Origin: Tomocerus qinae | Taxonomy: Eukaryota; Arthropoda; Collembola; Entomobryomorpha; Tomoceridae | Reading direction: 5' to 3' | DNA length: 64,000 bases | Assembly: GCA_020055645.1 (NCBI GenBank) | Contig: CM034548.1 | Span: 22,102,701-22,166,700, forward strand | Shown here: positions 28,697-62,767 of the stretch, piece after piece | How positions within the stretch are numbered: position 1 is the first letter of the stretch | Layout: the number at the start of each line of letters is the position of its first letter | The notes under the pieces: model-generated | Told to the model about the DNA's origin: nothing | Databases searched by the model: none | What the model saw: the letters and a program-made list of their open reading frames with translations, nothing else | Translations under genes and position numbers: made by a program

Positions 28697-30115
28697 TCAA
28701 AGTTTAACCTGTATGAGAGTATGTAGAGGATTAATAATGTAATTCAGAACGGTATAGCGTAGACTATTTATGCCATCTGTTCTGTACGAATCGCTGTTGC
28801 CCTGTTCAAGTATTTTAAATCTTTCGCCACTAGCTGCTTCTTTTTTATGAGGTAGCATTTGGTATGAGCTCACAAATGGAGAAAATCTTACTACTGTCAT
28901 ATTGTTGGCGGAAATCCGTCTGTAGAGGTCGTCATCTTCCCCTCCCCAACCAAAATATTGGTTGGAAAATCCATTGATTTTCTTAAAATGTTCTTGTAAA
29001 ATTGAAATGACGCCACCAAATAATTCTTGGTACTGTAGTAAATATCTATTGAAAACAAAAAAATTAATACCAGTTAGAAAAATGTATTAAACATTAAGCA
29101 GGCAACCCGAATTTTCGGAAACTCGGCAACGAGATGGCCCTAGAAATCGGACTTTGCCCCGCTCCCAAAGTTGGAAGAGTTTAAAAGTTTTAAATCAATG
29201 GGATGCCATAATACGAAGGGAGTGTGGCTTTGGACGGAACCAAAACTTGGAAATCGGGAAGTGGATGTTACCTTGCAATTTATGAAATTCAGGATGCCTA
29301 GTATTAAGGGATTAAGTTTGACTCACCTGAAGGTATTTACTGAAGAGCTCATATGACGGGGTTGCTTTGTGCAGCCATAAATATTACTGAGATTTTCAGG
29401 TAAAAGATCCACGTCGTGAAAAATGAAACAGTGAGACTTGTCCTGCTTCATAGCTTCAACGAATCCTATATTCAACAGCTTTCCCCTGTTGAATGGTTTG
29501 TCGTCGATTTGATGAACAACAATAATTTTATAGCTTATTAGTTGTAATTGCAAAAAAGGATGCATATATATTAGGAACTTCTTTAGCTGAGATGGCCTAT
29601 TTCGATATGGCACAACAATCACCACGTGATGAACTGGAGTACACGATTTTGGTTCCCAAATCCCTCCGGGTTGAATATCAAAATAGGAAGCGATATTTCT
29701 GTTTTCAGAATCGAACTCTTCTTCATCCCATGATGAGTAGTTTTGATTAATTTCATTCATAATATTGTAATTATCATCAGGCAATGGAGGACAGTGTGTT
29801 GGAACATATTCAGCCGCAGTATCGTTTTCTCTCAACTTTAAACTTAATTTGGATAATACTTTCGTAAAAGGAATATAGTTATATTCATATTCTGGAAACT
29901 CTTGAGGTTTCAAAATTGAAGAGAAAAAGAAGACGAGTAGAACGATCGGAAACCAAAATCTATTAGAAAATATATTTTTCCTTCTATAGCTACAGGTAAA
30001 TCTACGACATAATGCTGCCCTGTAAATCAATTAAACAAAATTGAAAATAATTATCAATCTTTATATTATTTGTGTATAACAGCAAAACTTACCACATAAT
30101 CTTTGCCATGGTCAT
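28697..30115 (-). CDS. beta-1,4-galactosyltransferase family enzyme (glycosyltransferase family 7), ~354 aa
   Basis: Coding exons are 30093-30115 (start codon; alternatives at 30248-30270 and 30392-30420), 29327-30019 and 28697-29045. The donor at the shared exon is CAG|GTGAGT. It is a type II Golgi protein: basic cytoplasmic segment, then membrane anchor FWFPIVLLVFFFSSIL (residues 29-44), stem and catalytic domain. Family motifs are all present: VVIVVPYRNRPSQL, the metal-binding HDVDLLPEN (DVD at 210-212), YGCTKQPRHM, FGGV, and acceptor-site FGWGGEDDD (270-278), then DGINSLRY. It should transfer Gal (or GalNAc, as some insect members do) from a UDP-sugar to GlcNAc ends of glycans. The GEDDD context excludes the GALT7 (xylosylprotein) branch, which has WGREDDE. 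Sugar specificity cannot be read here. Confidence 0.9.
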
Positions 30116-30139
30116 CGTCTATGCATCCAAGAAACGCAG
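30093..30139 (-). CDS. start exon a of the galactosyltransferase gene
   Basis: It runs from a strong acceptor (CTCTTTTTGTGTTTCAG, just above 30139) to donor TG|GTAAGT at 30093. It contains TAG-ACG-ATG, then codes MTMAKIM plus two bases that complete a Trp codon with the shared exon starting at 30019. The in-frame TAG just before the ATG shows the exon is 5' UTR plus start. It has two tandem paralogues upstream. Confidence 0.7.
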
Positions 30140-30247
30140 CTGAAACACAAAAAGAGAAATAATGATGCCATTTTTCCTGACGAAATAATAATTTCAATTT
30201 TCCTGATGAAATAATAATTTCAATCTAGTGGCTGTAATCAAAATTAC

Positions 30248-30301
30248 CAGAAAATCTTTGTAATGGTCATCTTCTAAACACCCAGAAAACGTTGAACGTA
30301 G
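30248..30301 (-). CDS. start exon b (tandem paralogue)
   Basis: Acceptor TTTTTTGCTTTAG, 54-nt exon with in-frame TAG-AAG-ATG, coding MTITKIF and ending TG|GTAATT. Same phase as exon a, so it can replace it. Confidence 0.6.
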
Positions 30302-30391
30302 CTAAAGCAAAAAACAGAAACAGAATGTCATTATTCATTATGCTAGGTAAAAATGTATAGAATCATTATAACTCTTGTGGTTAATAATTAC

Positions 30392-30445
30392 CAGATAATA
30401 ATTTTGTTGTAGATGGTCATCTTCTAAACATCCAAAATATAATAA
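30392..30445 (-). CDS. start exon c (tandem paralogue)
   Basis: Acceptor CTTTGTGTTTTAG, 54-nt exon with in-frame TAG-AAG-ATG, coding MTIYNKIII and ending TG|GTAATT. The phase is kept although the coding part is 6 nt longer than in a and b. Confidence 0.6.
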
Positions 30446-33400
30446 CTAAAACACAAAGCGGAGAAATAGGATGTCATTTTGTCATGTGAAGTTAAAAGTG
30501 CACGGAGTAATAAAAATCACATAAAAATCGAATAATTGATTAATAAATATATAGATGCAAGCTCAAATCACTAATAGTTTACTTTACGAAGCAAAAATAG
30601 AAAAGTTGTAAAGCAGAATATTTTTAAAGTTTAAATCTAGCCCACGCATAAGGGGAGACTAGTGGTTGGTTGAGCCGGCGATTCTGGTGGTTAGGAGGAA
30701 AAGGTAGGATAGAAGGTTTCCAAGTTAACAATTACAAAACCCTGTGCAAGTCGCATAAAGACTGCCAAGCAGATGTTTTGCCACGGCAATTTAAACTGAA
30801 GGTTCAGTGTTGTTTCGTTAGTGGAATAATAATGGTGAATGCCATTGTTTTGTTCTGGATTCTGAGTGACAGTGAATTTGATGGATTGATTGGACACCAT
30901 TGAAAGTCATGGTGACCTGTGACCTGGTTGTTCGTTTCTGGCTATTGGACTGTGACCTTTTTGATCGATGATTTTGTTTGTGATGTTTTTGAGGTAATAA
31001 TTAATTTCACGTTTTTAGTGTGTAGTTCAAGCCCACTTGTCCGATCTCTAATTTTTATTTATGGGAAATTTTCCTGCTATTTTGCCTTAAAAATCATCGC
31101 AACGGTAAGGCTACCGTTAAGTGAAAGTTTTTATTTTAAAGTAATCCTGTGTTTTAACAATAATGGTATGATTCTAAATGCCATGCAGAACAATAATAAT
31201 TACCAGAAGGCATAATATAGCATAATACCTATAATAAATGGCAGTAGTGCGGGTGCACTATAGTAAAACTTACAACATAACAAACGCAGAAGTGCACACT
31301 ATTGCTGAACTACACTTATTTATTATTGCACTTATTATTGTTAACAAAGTTATCTGTTCTAACTTACATTTAACCTTAGACCATAGACATAACTAGATAG
31401 TCATATAGGTATTAGCTATACTTCATACGTACATGTTGTACTTATTGTTGCGTTGATGCAGAGCAAAGAGCAAATAGAAAAGGATAATGCGTATTATTGC
31501 GTATAATATTATATTTTACAGTCAGTTTATCATTTATACATTTGGGAAGAATATACACATACCAGTAAGTTTAGACATCAATTTTGTTTTGACAACCGGT
31601 GCTAAGCTACATAAGGGGTTTTGCCGTAATGCTAACCATATTTTTGACAGTTTGTCAAAAATTTGAAGCTTAAGACATTCATTTAACATTAATCCTAATC
31701 ATGTAATTAGTAATTAAATTTATCTTGAAAGATTTGAAATAGTATTTTAGAATTATGTTGTATGTTAATTAATTTTAAAACTCAAAAATTTTGAAACGCT
31801 CTTTAGAGCCATTTTTATATTTTTATCAAACATTAAAATCTATTTATACCAGCCAGTGGTTTAAACTATCATAAAATATCAAGCCTTGGCATTTCAGTTC
31901 AAGTGTATAATTGCATTAATGTAAAAAAGTGACTGCAACATAATACTACATAAATCTGAGGTGTAGATGGATATTGACTAAGTAAAATTCCAAATTTAAT
32001 GCATCTGAAAATGTTAAAAATTGTTTTTCATGATCAAATAAAATAAATAGCTTTCAAACAGAATGCATATAATTTCCTAAATCAATTCTAAAGTAAATTA
32101 CTAACACTAGAAAGAAACGATATTAACACCTGCATCTGTACATGTAAAGAAATAAATAGGAAATCCTTTGGGTTATGCACAAGTCTATCAGCAAAAAATT
32201 TTATAAACCATTTAGATAATATTATTTAGAGTAGTACCGACCGATAGCAGGATTTGGGGTTTCGGTTTCACCACAAAATTTACATTTCTGTTAGCCGGCA
32301 GAAACTGGCTATAACATGATTTTAACCGGCTTAAAGTGGCTGAAACTGTACTTTGTTTCAATTTGAAAAATTATACCGGTAATAGTTTCAAAATAGTTAA
32401 TTTGATCACCACTTCGGATATGCAGTTAAAACGAAATTGTTCCGCTGCTAGAAGTAGGAAGACGGAAAGAATCTTATGGCCCGGTTTTATGGAGCTCTTT
32501 GGTAAAAACAACGTCGCATACGGGAAAAATGTTTTTGACATGGCACATTTGTAAATTGCAGCCAGTCTTTGCCACTAGATTTTGACAGCCATTTATATTC
32601 ATAGTGAAAACTACATAACTGGTTATTCAAAGCCATGCAGTAACCCTGATCGATAGGTTCCTTTAAATATATCTCTTCTTTCAAATCAATATATTATAAT
32701 ACACTTTATTTCATTATAGGATCCTCCCCAAATTCAGTTAGATGTAGTTTTACTATTATTCATGTACATAATTCTTTTGCATAGTAAATTAAATGTAGTG
32801 GTAGAGTAATTGGGGGTAGTTAGAGAGTCAGTGCCCCAATGAATTACCTTGTGGATACGACTCTGCTGAAGACAAGTAGGCAAAGGAATGAAAAGTGGTT
32901 AGTCCTTTTAATGTTATTGGTAGTTGTTGAATAAAGGCAAGCAAGGGTAAATGAAAAGTAGGGGATAGGGTAGAGAGTACTATACCTTTGTTTCTGTTAA
33001 TGACCAAGATCTCGTAATCTCATCTTACACTATGCACAAATGCACACCGGTTGTGTTGTCTCTGCATGATCTTAGTAGTTTATAGCCCACAGCACAGAAT
33101 ACATATGTATACAATATAGGTAATTATGTTGGTGGTTGTGTTGTGGTATATATGATTAGTTCTTTGAATGAAGGTAGATAGTAGATAGAAGTAAAAGAGG
33201 CTGATTTGTACAAGTTGGTACTTGTAGCTAAGACTTTACGTTTTGCAACTACTTATATAGCATGTGCACGTGTACGTTAACCTATATCTATCTGTCTGTG
33301 TGCCGTGCCGTGTGTGCGTATTCAAGCAATCTGTAATTCTTCGAAGAAAAGTATTATCTATTTACCTATACTAATAATCCTCAAGGGAGATATAACAAAT

Positions 33401-56900: not shown

Positions 56901-59900
56901 TGGAGATAGTTATTAAGGATTTCCTGGAAACGAAGATTTGAATAGGATTATTGCGGAAAAAGCTTGTTATTAGAGCATAAAGGAAGGAGTAGTTGAATTA
57001 CTCACGCTTTTTTGAATCCGAATGAAGGATGTATATCACGGTTAACTGGGTTCATCATCTTAACCGATTAAGAAACGAGGTCTCAGAATTTAATTAAAAT
57101 GATTAACTCAGCGAGCCGAAATAATTCGTTGATTGAAAGTTAATGAAGCGTGAGTAGCTGACTCAATTATTTCTTGAATGCAGGATTTTTTTTCTTGCAT
57201 GATGAATGTCAAATGCAGAAATAGAATCTTATTATTCTTTTAAATAGGCAATTATATTTTGTACGTCTTTATTCATATCTGAATGAGTAGCTAGTAGTAC
57301 GTATTTATTGAATTTCCCGAACGTTTGATCTCATTTTTCTACCATATGCAGGCTACTCAACAAATGGAAGAGAAATTGAAGAATTTCATTGTGGAAAATG
57401 AAACCCTGGAGAGTATTGGGGGCTGCGAAAAACTAAGTCCTGATTCAATCGCCATTGCGAGATTTGTTCATCATCAAGTTATAGAAATGGCAAGAGACTG
57501 TTTGCTCAAATCTCAAGAAAAGTTGATTTCCAGTCGGTATTTCTACGAAATGTCAGAAAATTTAGAGAGACTTTTGAGTGAAACGAAAGAAAAGTCCCCA
57601 GAAGCAGCGACATACTTGACGGGGCTTATCAAAAAACTTTTGTTGATGGTGTCTCGGCCTGCTCGACTTTTAGAGTGTCTTGAGTTTGATCCTGAAGAGT
57701 TCTACCACCTTTTGGAACAAGCAGAAGGACAGGCGAAAGTCACACAGGGCGTTAAAACGGATATTCCTCAATACATTATCAGTAAATTAGGTTTAAATCG
57801 GGATCCTATTGCAGGTACGTTGACTAAAAGACTTTTTAGCACTCGAAATAAATTGTATATTATACCCGTCCTTAACGAGATTAACTGTTGCAAATTGTTG
57901 AAACTTTTCCTCTTACAGAACTGCAGCAGGAACTTAACACTGAGAGTAAAAGTGTTGCGAGTGGCAGTTCAAATGGCTCATCGGGGAAAACAGATGTCGA
58001 ATCGAAAGAAAGTTCTGAGAAAAAAATAACACTACCTTCAGAGCAGGACTTTGAAGTTGTTAAATTAATTTCCAATGGAGCTTACGGAGCTGTGTATTTG
58101 GTGCGACACCGAGAGTCTCGTTTACGATATGCCATGAAGAAAATCAATAAGCATAACCTTATGCTTAGAAACCAAGTTGAGCAAGTTTTTGCAGAAAGAG
58201 ATATCATGAGCTTTACTGATAACCCATTCGTTGTGAGCATGTATTGCAGTTTCGAGACTAAGGTACAAAACTTTCCTGACTTAATTACCTGTTAATTAAT
58301 TATTTACTTGCACACTGTTTTGCCATTAGTACTTTTCTTACACAACTAAATCTCTTTTTTATAACTCTACAGAAACATTTGTGTTTGGTGATGGAATACG
58401 TCGAAGGCGGTGATTGTGCCACTCTCCTCAAAAATATGGGCCCTTTACCTTCAGATATGGCTAGGCTTTATTTCGCTGAATCAGTTTTAGCCGTGGAATA
58501 CCTTCACAGCTATGGAATCGTTCACAGGGATCTAAAGCCAGACAAGTAGGACTCTCAATTAAAAATTTAAAAAAGTACTACTACAGGATTTATCAATTGT
58601 TTCTCAATTTTTTTTAGCTTGCTGATCACGGCTCTTGGCCACATAAAGTTGACGGATTTTGGACTCAGTAAAGTTGGACTCATGTCTCGTAAGCGAAATT
58701 ATTGATTTGTCATTGTTAACAGCCCTGCTCTAGTGGTAGCACTGGTTGGATCTTGGATCTAATTGAATTTCTTAAATCAACAGTGGCGACCAACTTATAT
58801 GAGGGATTTATTGATCGTGAAACTCGGCAGTTTTCTGACAAACAAGTTTTTGGAACACCAGAGTACATTGCTCCTGAAGTAATTCTCAGACAGGGTTATG
58901 GGAAACCTGTGGACTGGTGGTCCATGGGGATAATATTGTATGAATTTATCGTTGGGTGTGTTCCATTTTTCGGAGAGACACCGGAAGAGTTGTTTGCTCA
59001 TACTGTGAACGGTACGTGGAGAAAATGCTAATAAGATAATTACATTAATTAAACGTTGAATGCTAGTTCTAGTTTTGGCTGACGTCTTTTAAATAGATGA
59101 TATTGAGTGGCCTCCTGAGGAAGATTGGCCTGTGACACTAGAAACGAAAGATATAATATCGGCATTGCTTCAGCAGAATCCTCGTGATAGATTGGGCACT
59201 GCGGGAGCACAGGAAGTGAAGGATCATCCTTATTTCGGAGGAGTTGATTGGAATTCCTTGTTAAGGCAGAAAGTGGAATTCGTCCCTGCATTAGAGAACG
59301 ACGAAGATACCTCTTACTTCGACAGTAAGTGTCTTTCTCATTCCTTCTGTTTATCGCACTATGGACGGTTGACTACAAGTGTTTATAATTTTGTTGACAC
59401 AGCTCGTGTTGATCGATATCAGCACGACTTAGATGTGGAGACAGACGACACTGATGAGTCGCAGCCTTTGTTTGGCTTTTCCTCATGCTCTCATCGCTAC
59501 CGGAAAACACAAACCAGATCAAAATTAGGGGACAGTTCTGCTGATCCAGTTGATTCGAGTGGAACTGGAAGTGATGGATCTGTTCACAATTCTAAAGATA
59601 AACCAGACTGCTCCTCTTCTTCAAACATTACGTCATCCACTGCCACTGATCTTACGCTCGACAAATCCACTTCTGTGTCTCTGTTCACATCCAGTCAAAG
59701 TGTGGAGGAGGAAAAGCCGAAAGCGGATGAAGGGAAACTGACAACTCAACTTAGCACTCCAGATTCCAGTCAGACTGAAAGTGAAGAAGTCTCACCTCAA
59801 CTTCATCGAAGAAGAAAGATCCATCGGGATTGTCTTCCTAGATTTTCCATCTCCACAACTGCCGAAAGCCAATATGCTCTGATGAAAGCCGAATCCGAGC

Positions 59901-62767
59901 GCGCGGAGAAAGCAGCGGCCCTCTCATCAGACACTCCGGCGAGAGCTATGGTTCATCGTTTTCAGTCCACTCCCAATTCATCACTCCAAAACGAGACTGA
60001 CATTTCTAGGAATTTCGTCAAGAGTGCTTCTGCTTTTGGCCTGTCACTTCAAATTCCTGGTGACGAAACGCTATCTTTTGTTGTGGCAGCTGCCAACAGC
60101 CAGTCCATTCAATCTCCAGGAGGATCTAGCACAGCTAGTTCAAGAGATACTTCTCCATGCAGAGAACTCGCTCCAATTATCAACAGCCTCAAACCTCCCA
60201 TCATTATTCGCAAGGGGCCACGAGGTCTTGGTTTTACTCTCCGAGCTATTCGTGTCTACTTCGGAGACTCTAATGTGTACACTGTGCAGCATCTCGTGAA
60301 GGAAGTCACTGAAGGCAGTCCTGCCTTTGAAGCCGGTCTCAGAGCTGGTGATCTCATTACTCAGGTAATAAAGATAAAACACTCAAACCTTATTCATTAT
60401 GTATTAGAACCTTTTTGCAAATCTTAAACCACTGCAAAATAGGGAAAGTAAAGGAAAGCTATTGCTTGTCCCTTATGGCAAATTTACTTTATATCGTAAT
60501 TCACTAACATGATTTGCAATTGGCAACTTACTAATGACGTAATTAATGACATAAAATGTTGACTTACAAATGACGTGACATAACTAGATGCCGCGTGAGT
60601 TTCTTATTTAAATCCCCACCTCTGGATCTGTGATGTTTGCTATTGGCTCTCGTATACGTCGTCATCGTCAGCGCTGTATTTTGGTCATTTCAGGACTATT
60701 CCCCATTAAAATAAATTACTCTATCGAAAAACTTGTCATGTCATCTTCTCTGCCTTAATGTAGTCGATGTTATTCCCTCCTCATGTGTCACCTATTCAGA
60801 CCAAATAATGTGTTTGTATTTGTCCATTGCTGAAGCAGTATTTTTTTCTCGTGTGTGTGTTGTCTTTTTGATAGATGTGCTTTTCACTTGTAAAATGTAT
60901 CCCTTACATCCGACTTCCCTGTGCGCGGATTTGTGTGTGTGTGAAATATTGAAATGTTTACCAAGGAAAAATGTTTCTGATTGTAATTTCATTGTTTTAG
61001 GTTAACGGGGAGCCAACTCAGGGTCTCCTACATACTCAAGTGCTGCATCTGCTGATGGGCGGGGGTGATCAGTTAACCCTAAGAGCTACTCCTCTTGAAA
61101 ATACATCGATTAGATCCGGCGGTCGAAGGAGAGAGCCAGGACAGTCAAAAATGGCTCGGTCGCCACTTTTGAAAACTAGGAAGAGCAAGCGAGAAAGTGT
61201 TGAGAAGAGAAGGAAATCTTTGTTTTTGAAAACGTTGAGCGGGAAGAGGGCATCGGCGGAGATGCAGCATTTGAGATTATCTCTAGGAGGAACATCGATG
61301 ACTCCTAGTCGAAGTTTTCAATCGTTAGCCCGATCTGTCGAGAATGTGCAGCAGCAGCCCAGTCTGCCTGGGTCTCCGACTAAGACCCGCTCGTCTCAGT
61401 CGCCACCTTTGCCGAGAATCTTTTCGCTCTCTGACTCACCTCATTCTACAGCGAATTCCACTCCGTCGAGTTCTCCAGGCTCCTCCCTCCCCGATAGTCC
61501 TGCTACCCTTGGGCCAGTGGGACTCCTGGGTCCTCACTTTCAACGTCCGTCCAGCCTCCACGGTCTAAAGCATAAACTCCATCATCACCATACAACGAAC
61601 AAAAACATTCACTCGCCTAATCGTCGGAAGTCCGTCGGTCACATTCCATTGAGTCCCCTGGCCCGTACTCCGTCGCCCTCTCCAATTTCCTCATCCCCTA
61701 CTCGATCTCCGAGTCCTTTGGCTATCGCAACAGCCTCGCACTCACACTCTCAATCCTCATCCATTAATTTAAGTTCATCGTCCCTCTCCCCCGCTACTGT
61801 GGCTGCCAAGAAACCTTTCACTCGGACAAAGAACGCAGAGCCCGGGTCGCCGCTCCTTCGCCGAGCACTTTCCCCCGATCGTCACCACCCTCGAACTACG
61901 GAGATCAAAGCCATCTCTCCGTTGTGTAATCCTGCTCCAAAAGTCACCATTTCGTCTCCACCCAAAGTAACCATCACATCGCAAGTGACAACGCCCGTTG
62001 TCTCCGTGAAAACGCCATCGTCCACAACAACAACGACCACAAGCGCCTCCGCAGATGTCGTCTTGAGGCGGAGTCGTCGTGACGGTTGTCAATTCGAACA
62101 TCCCGTCGTGGAGGCGGCGAGGACTACAGTCAATGTGGGCGTGTCCTCCACGGATACGAGTCATAGTTCCACCAGTCTTTCGTCTATGGTGTTGCCACGC
62201 ATTGCAGAAGAGAAGGATTCACCCAAGGAAGACTCTAGCAGTGAACTTGGGGCAGACCCCGCTTCCAAATCGACACAAGCAGCAGAAAGCACTGCGGAGC
62301 AAGAACTGAAGAAGGCAGAGAGAAGTAAAGAAACTGAATCAAATTGTGACATAAATGGTGCTGTTCCCACTGAGACTGGAGACTCAAACATCAAGCCCTG
62401 TGCATGTCGACCGAAGACCTGTACTTGCAAGGCCACTGCTGGTGCTACTAGTGTCAAAACTAAACAATCGAGGGTGGTAGCCAAACCCGTCGCCGCCCCT
62501 TCTGCCATCATCGCTCCGTCGACGACCTCCGCAAAAGTCGAGGACAAGAGTAAAAGTAGTAGCGGAGGTGGAAATGCCAAATCTTCTCTAGGGGCTGTAT
62601 CTGTAGACAGTAGTGTCAGTGCGAAGCCAGCTGTGAGAGTGTCCCCTACCCCTCCACTCTCATTTAAACTGTCCCTGGTAAGCAAGGAGAAAGAAGCGGG
62701 CAGCTCAGCAGGGACAAAGTCCAAACCAGAATCTGCATGTTCAACGGCCTCTAAAAGATCTACATAA
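38156..62767 (+). CDS. MAST: MAST-family microtubule-associated serine/threonine kinase, 14 coding exons, ~1,675 aa
   Basis: Exons: 38156-38348, 38766-38851, 51551-51659, 53365-53513, 53779-53957, 56796-56871, 57352-57814, 57919-58262, 58373-58545, 58618-58688, 58784-59011, 59097-59324, 59403-60364, 61001-62767. All are GT-AG, all phases match, and the total is 5,028 nt. Domain order is that of vertebrate MAST1-4 and fly dop: Ser-rich N-terminus, DUF1908 (about 190-455), AGC kinase (462-about 735), PDZ (1031-about 1122), long Ser/Pro tail. MAST kinases associate with microtubules and, through the PDZ domain, bind partners such as PTEN; fly dop acts in dynein-dependent transport during cellularisation. 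The start chosen is the ATG at 38156, directly after a TTTTTCAG acceptor, which implies an upstream non-coding exon. Large 5' introns (up to 12.7 kb) contrast with a compact 3' half. Exon 2 can be replaced by exon 50395-50612. Confidence 0.92.
41862..42311. mobile_element. 450-bp TIR element with CAGAGGCGTAA termini (hAT-like)
   Basis: CAGAGGCGTAA at 41862 and its complement TTACGCCTCTG ending at 42311 are perfect 11-bp inverted repeats. A CAGAGGCG start is typical of hAT-type non-autonomous elements, but the flanking 8-mers match only at about 5 of 8 positions, so the target duplication is degraded. No transposase. It lies inside the large MAST intron. Confidence 0.55.
50395..50612 (+). CDS. 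MAST: alternative MAST exon (mutually exclusive with 38766-38851, or alternative first exon)
   Basis: Acceptor TGTTGCAG, then a Ser/Thr/Pro-rich frame with ATG at 50400 and sequence such as [10 protein letters not shown] and [18 protein letters not shown]. It ends at AAG|GTATTC, or alternatively TCG|GTAACA at 50588. Input phase is 1 and output phase 0, identical to exon 38766-38851, so it can substitute for that exon but cannot be spliced to it. An in-frame TAA at 50376 just upstream would also suit an alternative first exon starting at Met 50400. Confidence 0.5.
51050..51111. repeat. 31-bp tandem duplication
   Basis: ATTACCTC(C/T)TGTAATATTTA CTTGTCTT is present twice in tandem with period 31. 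Confidence 0.75.
53958..56795 (+). other. MAST: 2.8-kb intron of MAST
   Basis: Contains a CT run at about 56199-56217 and otherwise unremarkable A+T-rich DNA. No exon or repeat recognised. Confidence 0.6.
56796..57814 (+). CDS. MAST: MAST exons encoding DUF1908 core
   Basis: Two exons (56796-56871 and 57352-57814) give residues 239-418. The segment runs from [13 protein letters not shown] through [12 protein letters not shown] and [20 protein letters not shown] to [17 protein letters not shown], all close to vertebrate MAST. This four-helix-like DUF1908 region is unique to MAST kinases. Splicing is phase 0 in and phase 1 out. Confidence 0.92.
57919..59324 (+). CDS. MAST: MAST exons encoding the AGC kinase domain
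   Basis: Five exons (57919-58262, 58373-58545, 58618-58688, 58784-59011, 59097-59324) give residues 419-766. All catalytic features are intact: Gly-rich loop NGAYGAV (471-477), ATP-binding Lys492 in YAMKK, HRDLKPDN with catalytic Asp586, DFG at 604-606, activation-loop GTPEYIAPE with APE at 644-646, and the AGC C-terminal extension ending EDTSYFD. An active Ser/Thr kinase is expected. Introns are all short (83-110 nt) except none above 200 nt. Confidence 0.95.
59403..62767 (+). CDS. MAST: MAST exons encoding PDZ domain and Ser/Pro-rich tail
   Basis: Exons 59403-60364 and 61001-62767 give residues 767-1675. After a Ser-rich linker comes the PDZ domain (from about 1031: [19 protein letters not shown], with GLGFTL as carboxylate-binding loop) which crosses the exon junction at ITQ|VNGEP. 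Basic [18 protein letters not shown] follows, then a conserved [14 protein letters not shown] block, and a low-complexity tail with one Cys cluster ([11 protein letters not shown]). The last exon is markedly richer in G+C than its surroundings, which creates long antisense open frames. Confidence 0.9.

Follow-up and report, generated by a model that had tools for sequence, protein, structure and literature searches.

Arthropods routinely use clusters of homologous exons that exclude one another, and beta-4-GalT1 occurs in long and short forms that carry alternative cytoplasmic tails on the same anchor and enzyme. We know of no tandem start exons in its Drosophila relatives beta4GalNAcTA and beta4GalNAcTB. 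Of the invertebrate enzymes, these two come closest to beta-4-GalT1-6 of vertebrates, as far as the passages cited here go (PMC3362294). A second type II Golgi enzyme with a variable N-terminus on a constant anchor and enzyme is GM3 synthase, according to a citation in the parts of PMC12331695 used here. For exon clusters, the consulted sections of the WebScipio paper (PMC3228551) report that only 14 of the 101 terminal exons examined there shared the features of such clusters, that most 5'-terminal clusters represent alternative promoters, and that a true cluster may exist where the first translated exon follows an untranslated one.

Here we describe an arthropod glycosyltransferase gene with three related copies of its tiny first coding exon, which probably allow the protein to begin with one of three slightly differing N-termini, judging from the predicted exons. 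It lies in a window of 64,000 nucleotides, i.e., the whole stretch of DNA that was analysed. The window protein, too, has its best match in beta-4-GalT1.

The gene and its three start-codon exons

The minus strand from 30500 to 28697 holds the coding part of a GT7 glycosyltransferase gene, which is intact and is made up of the following features:

30392..30445, minus strand: unit c, 54 nt, ATG at 30420, N-terminus MTIYNKIIIW
30248..30301, minus strand: unit b, 54 nt, ATG at 30270, N-terminus MTITKIFW, GTG replacing the start of the upstream ORF (uORF)
30093..30139, minus strand: unit a, 47 nt, ATG at 30115, N-terminus MTMAKIMW, best acceptor and donor of the three
29327..30019, minus strand: exon 2, common to all forms, with the rest of the cytoplasmic tail, the membrane anchor and the start of the GT7 domain
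28697..29045, minus strand: exon 3, with the end of the GT7 catalytic domain and the stop at 28697

Exons 2 and 3 are separated by the intron 29327/29045. The predicted protein matches Glyco_transf_7N (PF13733; 144 bits, E 2.5e-42) and Glyco_transf_7C (PF02709; 92 bits, E 1.7e-26) and aligns with bovine beta-4-GalT1 over 230 residues (204 bits, E 3e-59), a better match than the one with beta-4-GalT7 (at most 115 bits). The hallmarks of GT7 are all present, namely the DVD metal site, the WGGEDDD motif, the Met and His of the metal site and a short type II anchor, whose hydrophobic peak is SNRFWFPIVLLVFFFSSIL. In the alignment, FHDVDLL, FGWGGEDDD and QMLPH of the window protein correspond to FSDVDLI, WGWGGEDDD and RMIRH of the bovine enzyme.

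Directly before FGG the alignment places Leu in the window protein and Tyr in bovine beta-4-GalT1. The residue that switches the donor we take to be this Tyr, Tyr289. According to the cited portion of PMC3362294, a single residue of the active site reportedly determines the donor, and both Drosophila relatives favour GalNAc. Given the Leu and the preference of the Drosophila relatives, beta-4-GalNAc/Gal-transferase is the safer name for the product, and the predicted enzyme is more likely a beta-4-GalNAc-transferase than a galactosyltransferase. An earlier note on this DNA had called the gene a beta-1,4-galactosyltransferase; it is better assigned to the beta-4-GalT/beta-4-GalNAcT family.

Ahead of the anchor, exon 2 offers no start that could serve. 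A TAA shortly before 30030 closes its frame, translation from the ATG at 30010 would run in another frame and end after 2 codons, and the first in-frame Met, at 29760, comes only after the membrane anchor. The Met that had been placed at 30030 does not exist, as the codon there is an intronic TTG. An upstream start exon ending in phase 2 is therefore required. Units a, b and c adjoin exon 2 on its upstream side, all within 430 bp. Every unit begins behind an AG acceptor, contains the start TAG-xxx-ATG-ACC and ends at a TG|GTAA donor whose phase suits exon 2; the units share the core GGATGTTTAGAAGATGACCAT. The distances from core to core between neighbouring units are 155 and 150 bp, in agreement with the period of about 150 bp first described for three minus-strand units of 47-54 nt. 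Joined to exon 2 at 30019 and to exon 3, each unit gives a single ORF, of 354 (a), 354 (b) or 356 aa (c). The outgoing phase is identical in all units, and their incoming side is untranslated.

Between 30020 and 40000 there are 11 phase-2 ATG-donor candidates of at least 6 bits, the three units and 8 others. With 8 further candidates in 10 kb, a start-exon-like stretch is by itself weak evidence. The anatomy and phases of the units, their duplication and conservation pattern and their uORFs can be read directly from the DNA: the tandem triplication of the start exon is real, and the gene is otherwise ordinary. The triplication is probably functional, as suggested by the patterns described below.

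Rfam and tRNA scans of the window gave no matches. On its plus strand, at 57298-62767, lie the exons of another gene, which encode a DUF1908 domain and a PDZ_6 match just under the cut-off; kinase-like motifs recognised by eye suggest a MAST kinase.

Kinship of the units

Local alignment from exon to exon gave scores of 38 for a/b, 45 for b/c and 31 for a/c. In 300 dinucleotide shuffles of 6 kb each, the highest scores reached were 28 with unit a, 31 with b and 34 with c. The exon-only similarity of a and c is marginal. With flanks, the scores were 70 (b/c), 56 (a/b) and 47 (a/c). In 5000 random pairs of 95-nt stretches of the window lying 152 apart, 27 reached 47, 20 reached 56 and 12 reached 70; local repeats as strong as the unit pairs are uncommon, though not unique, in the window.

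The similarity covers the exons, with 35/47 (a/b), 40/48 (b/c) and 34/42 (a/c) identical positions equalled in 0 of 500 shuffles, and the 38 nt upstream of them, with 28/35, 29/35 and 31/36 for the same pairs (at most 1 of 500 shuffles). In the acceptor flanks and the exons, 74-86% of the aligned bases are identical between units. When only the 5' UTR part of the exon is compared, the signal for a/b and a/c drops below that of the complete exon (6 of 500 shuffles each), and the 8 nt on the 3' side of the exon agree at 7/8, 7/8 and 6/8, equalled by 11, 24 and 89 of 500 shuffles. The conserved upstream stretches are as follows:

30446..30483, minus strand: stretch upstream of unit c, with a pyrimidine tract and a putative branch-point-like TGAC
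30302..30339, minus strand: stretch upstream of unit b, with a pyrimidine tract and a putative branch-point-like TGAC
30140..30177, minus strand: stretch upstream of unit a, with a pyrimidine tract and TGGC for the TGAC of b and c

The three pairs of spacers (44-65 nt) align no better than shuffles (383, 442 and 80 of 500). A second scoring of six spacer pairs, including the stretch upstream of c, gave 13, 17, 18, 24, 15 and 20. Random pairs, which were somewhat shorter, had a median of 12 and a 95th percentile of 18; two of the six exceed that percentile, slightly over background, and all are AT-rich. Since head-to-tail duplication copies the spacers too, their divergence next to retained splice signals suggests that splicing function was kept in all three units and that more than one unit is under constraint, an argument subject to local insertions, possible gene conversion and the view from a single species. 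The divergence may partly reflect insertions, given the 26-nt tandem repeat between b and a. This repeat occupies 30156-30224 in 2.7 copies of 26 bp and has two acceptor-like sites (30203 and 30177) that outscore the acceptors of the units. The 6-nt length change of unit c, whose kept phase had been read as a sign of selection, would preserve the phase by chance in one case of three.

Searching the 334 Mb genome for the 21-base core with at most 2 mismatches returned the three units and one 2-mismatch match elsewhere, and the reversed core, as a control, gave 5 matches under the same threshold; the lone extra match lies within the control rate, and no convincing copy of the core was found elsewhere in the 334 Mb. 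A genome query with the 97-nt cassette c, at E up to 10, found itself only and missed its siblings a and b, so it carries little information on more diverged copies. Run over the whole window, a sequence model built from all three units recovered the units and one 22-nt match (E 8.7) to the repeat beside a.

The two nearest paralogues, at C1:95.49 and 95.50 Mb, are open and unbroken from MANLRVL... through the anchor. A shared origin of the units with the start of these paralogues was rejected, as neither has a split start exon; the other paralogue pieces (C5 and C1:108.89 Mb) were examined around the catalytic exons only. The region C1:95487873-95512767 (L004, L005, L010 and L011) holds these two beta-4-GalT/GalNAcT paralogues, which lie close together and are very similar, each with a last exon of its own; the pair is probably a recent tandem duplication. 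Also in the genome, C1:36670928-36672268 with its flanks (L025) is a mitochondrial-like stretch in a chromosome-sized contig. Its cox1-, cox2- and atp6-like frames are open under code 5 (invertebrate mitochondrial), and the stretch is either a recent transfer into the nucleus or a mitochondrial genome joined to the contig by mistake. TTAGG arrays in the genome, with 279 matches counted over both strands and overlapping ones in an array taken separately, point to an arthropod.

Proposed use of the units and alternative readings

We favour, as an even call, the reading that a twice-duplicated start exon is spliced, one copy at a time, from an upstream untranslated exon to exon 2, with a as the main copy. 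Two tandem duplications would have copied a short start-codon exon along with the pyrimidine tract, the likely branch point and the 5' splice site that belong to it. A putative untranslated first exon further upstream would splice to one of the three copies and the chosen copy to exon 2, the unit last before exon 2 providing the start codon and the first 8-10 residues of the cytoplasmic tail. The anchor, the other basic residues of the tail and the enzyme would be identical whichever unit is used. Unit a, with the best sites and the position nearest exon 2, would probably give the main form, and b and c alternatives. In this scheme we infer exon use, the upstream exon, the branch point and the consequence; the list of donors in the window gave no decisive candidate for the upstream untranslated exon, and none was identified.

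Splice sites were scored with a general insect-like weight matrix that is not specific to the species under study. On this scale the acceptors reach 8.9 (a), 6.6 (b) and 4.2 bits (c); among 7135 scorable AG sites, a thus ranks in the top 0.7%, b in the top 4.3% and c in the top 15.0%. The donors reach 10.6, 7.4 and 7.4 bits, in the top 0.3% (a) and top 1.9% (b and c) of 7045 scorable GT sites. The word strong, which the earlier note had applied to all three acceptors, fits a, fits b less well and does not fit c, whose acceptor is mediocre. With the best-ranked acceptor and donor, unit a is likely the main exon, and the weakening of the acceptors from a to c means that c, and perhaps also b, may be minor or relic exons.

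Taken further, only a, or a with rare use of b, would be spliced in, and b and c, or c alone, would be silent relic duplicates. We hold this to be unlikely, though it is the most serious alternative: the drop in site strength from a to c fits it, and so does the ATG frame, which shows no protein-level constraint in a low-powered test; what weighs against it is that b and c retain AG, GT, the in-frame TAG, ATG-ACC and the phase while the spacers have mostly diverged, and that with flanks b/c score higher than a/b or a/c.

If one copy is indeed chosen, competition between splice sites favouring a would be the simplest proposal for the choice. The introns c-b and b-a measure 90 and 108 nt, lengths that are not too short for insect splicing, so size does not force the exclusion of an exon. 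A competing RNA structure was also considered as the chooser. Pairing of the c-b with the b-a intron (-32.8 kcal) was equalled in 8 of 1000 dinucleotide shuffles, with five intron pairs tested, and in 1 of 200 mononucleotide shuffles, with six; the idea was set aside, since 305 of 2000 random stretches of the AT-rich window pair as strongly.

The units also differ in their uORFs. Those of a (MHRR*, 30112-30126, minus strand) and c (MFRR*, 30417-30431, minus strand) have 4 codons each, with a stop that overlaps the main start as ATGA, and b has none, carrying GTG where a and c have the upstream ATG. When all eight combinations of units were enumerated, seven contained a unit, and in all of these the last one opened the main ORF; an mRNA that joins two or all three of them acquires uORFs of 16-18 codons. 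As the predicted tails are nearly equivalent, exon choice would more likely change the efficiency with which the mRNA is translated than the position of the enzyme. The full version of this thought, in which the start exons act as a translational selector of dose (a uORF in a and c, none in b), with c adding a Tyr-based sorting motif to an unchanged enzyme, seems quite unlikely to us.

It is very unlikely that the tails send the enzyme to different Golgi sub-compartments or alter its retention. Before the anchor, as placed here, the tails measure 28 (a), 28 (b) and 30 (c) residues and all have a net charge of +7; the variable part is confined to the far N-terminal 7-10 residues with one Lys each, and six of the seven basic residues sit in the common exon 2. 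The three phase-matched start exons with splice-like borders of the earlier note stand, and its tuning of Golgi position finds no support in the sequence. In the ATG frame, replacements make up 5/7 (a/b), 6/6 (a/c) and 5/6 (b/c) of the changed codons, and no amino-acid constraint was detected: of 2000 random placements, 531, 1018 and 1714 equalled the observed conservation, in a test of low power on 12 codons aligned by hand, six of which precede the ATG and are untranslated. The differences between the three N-termini look minor on these counts. Tail c has YNKI, which fits the Tyr-based sorting motif YxxPhi, as about one random tail in ten would by a rough estimate. A precedent is GM3 synthase, whose isoforms with differing cytoplasmic tails differ in ER/Golgi location (Uemura 2009, as cited in the consulted part of PMC12331695); its M1 form has the arginine ER-retention motif RRXXXXR, whereas the variable parts here have no such motif.

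Exon 2 itself contains LCRR, which fits the LxxR pattern named for GOLPH3 partners in the same portion of PMC12331695. The Golgi recycling adaptors GOLPH3 and FAM114A are reported, in the passages cited, to bind membrane-proximal basic residues (PMC8421267, PMC11441981), a signal that would here lie in the exon common to all forms. Of the six residues next to the anchor, however, a single one is basic. With this and the long tail, the fit to the described GOLPH3 clients is imperfect, and the enzyme, judged by its predicted tail, is no textbook GOLPH3 client.

It is more doubtful still that the units are first exons with their own promoters, or receive a trans-spliced leader, with no upstream untranslated exon. 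A trans-spliced leader occurs in some crustaceans, and the failure to identify an upstream exon at the locus agrees with such a view. Promoters usually choose alternative 5'-terminal exons, as stated in the cited sections of PMC3228551; every unit here has an acceptor with a conserved 38-nt flank, a feature for which a first exon under its own promoter would have no need.

Hardly credible is the last reading, that the conserved stretch codes in another frame (GCLEDDH / GCIDDDH) for alternative exons of another protein: this frame is open across all three units and more similar than the ATG frame (equalled in 60 (a/b), 159 (a/c) and 478 (b/c) of 2000 placements), yet the signal is weak given three frames tested, the 5' parts of a and of b/c differ by 1 nt in phase, and once the unit is spliced to exon 2, the sixth codon of this frame is a stop (GSIMS*). 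A conserved GCLEDDH peptide was rejected for the weak similarity and this stop.

Comparison with known exon clusters

Within coding regions, alternatively spliced exons that arose by tandem duplication are familiar; here the duplication has hit a mostly untranslated start exon, in the gene of a Golgi enzyme. This start-exon position was set aside as mostly alternative promoters by one exon survey, in the passages of PMC3228551 cited here. If all three units are used, the locus would be a compact test case for the question whether the far N-terminus of a glycosyltransferase counts or just the basic residues nearer the membrane, and for the choice of uORFs by splicing. The open-access literature searched yielded no description of a beta-4-GalT/GalNAcT gene with start-codon exons in tandem.

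Alternative promoters are marked by first exons that lack an acceptor, and all units have an AG acceptor with a conserved flank. As in a cluster, the exons are homologous, similar in length and identical in outgoing splice phase. The predicted gene fits the case of the first translated exon as given in the cited part of PMC3228551, the upstream exon and the exclusivity being putative. Like the clusters of Dscam and Mhc, it has homologous neighbouring exons of similar length and the same outgoing phase, with kept splice sites and one common downstream exon. Unlike in those clusters, the units carry a start codon and mostly 5' UTR, with no visible amino-acid constraint, and their mutual exclusivity is putative. 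The arrangement is thus of a known kind, in an unusual gene and at an unusual position.
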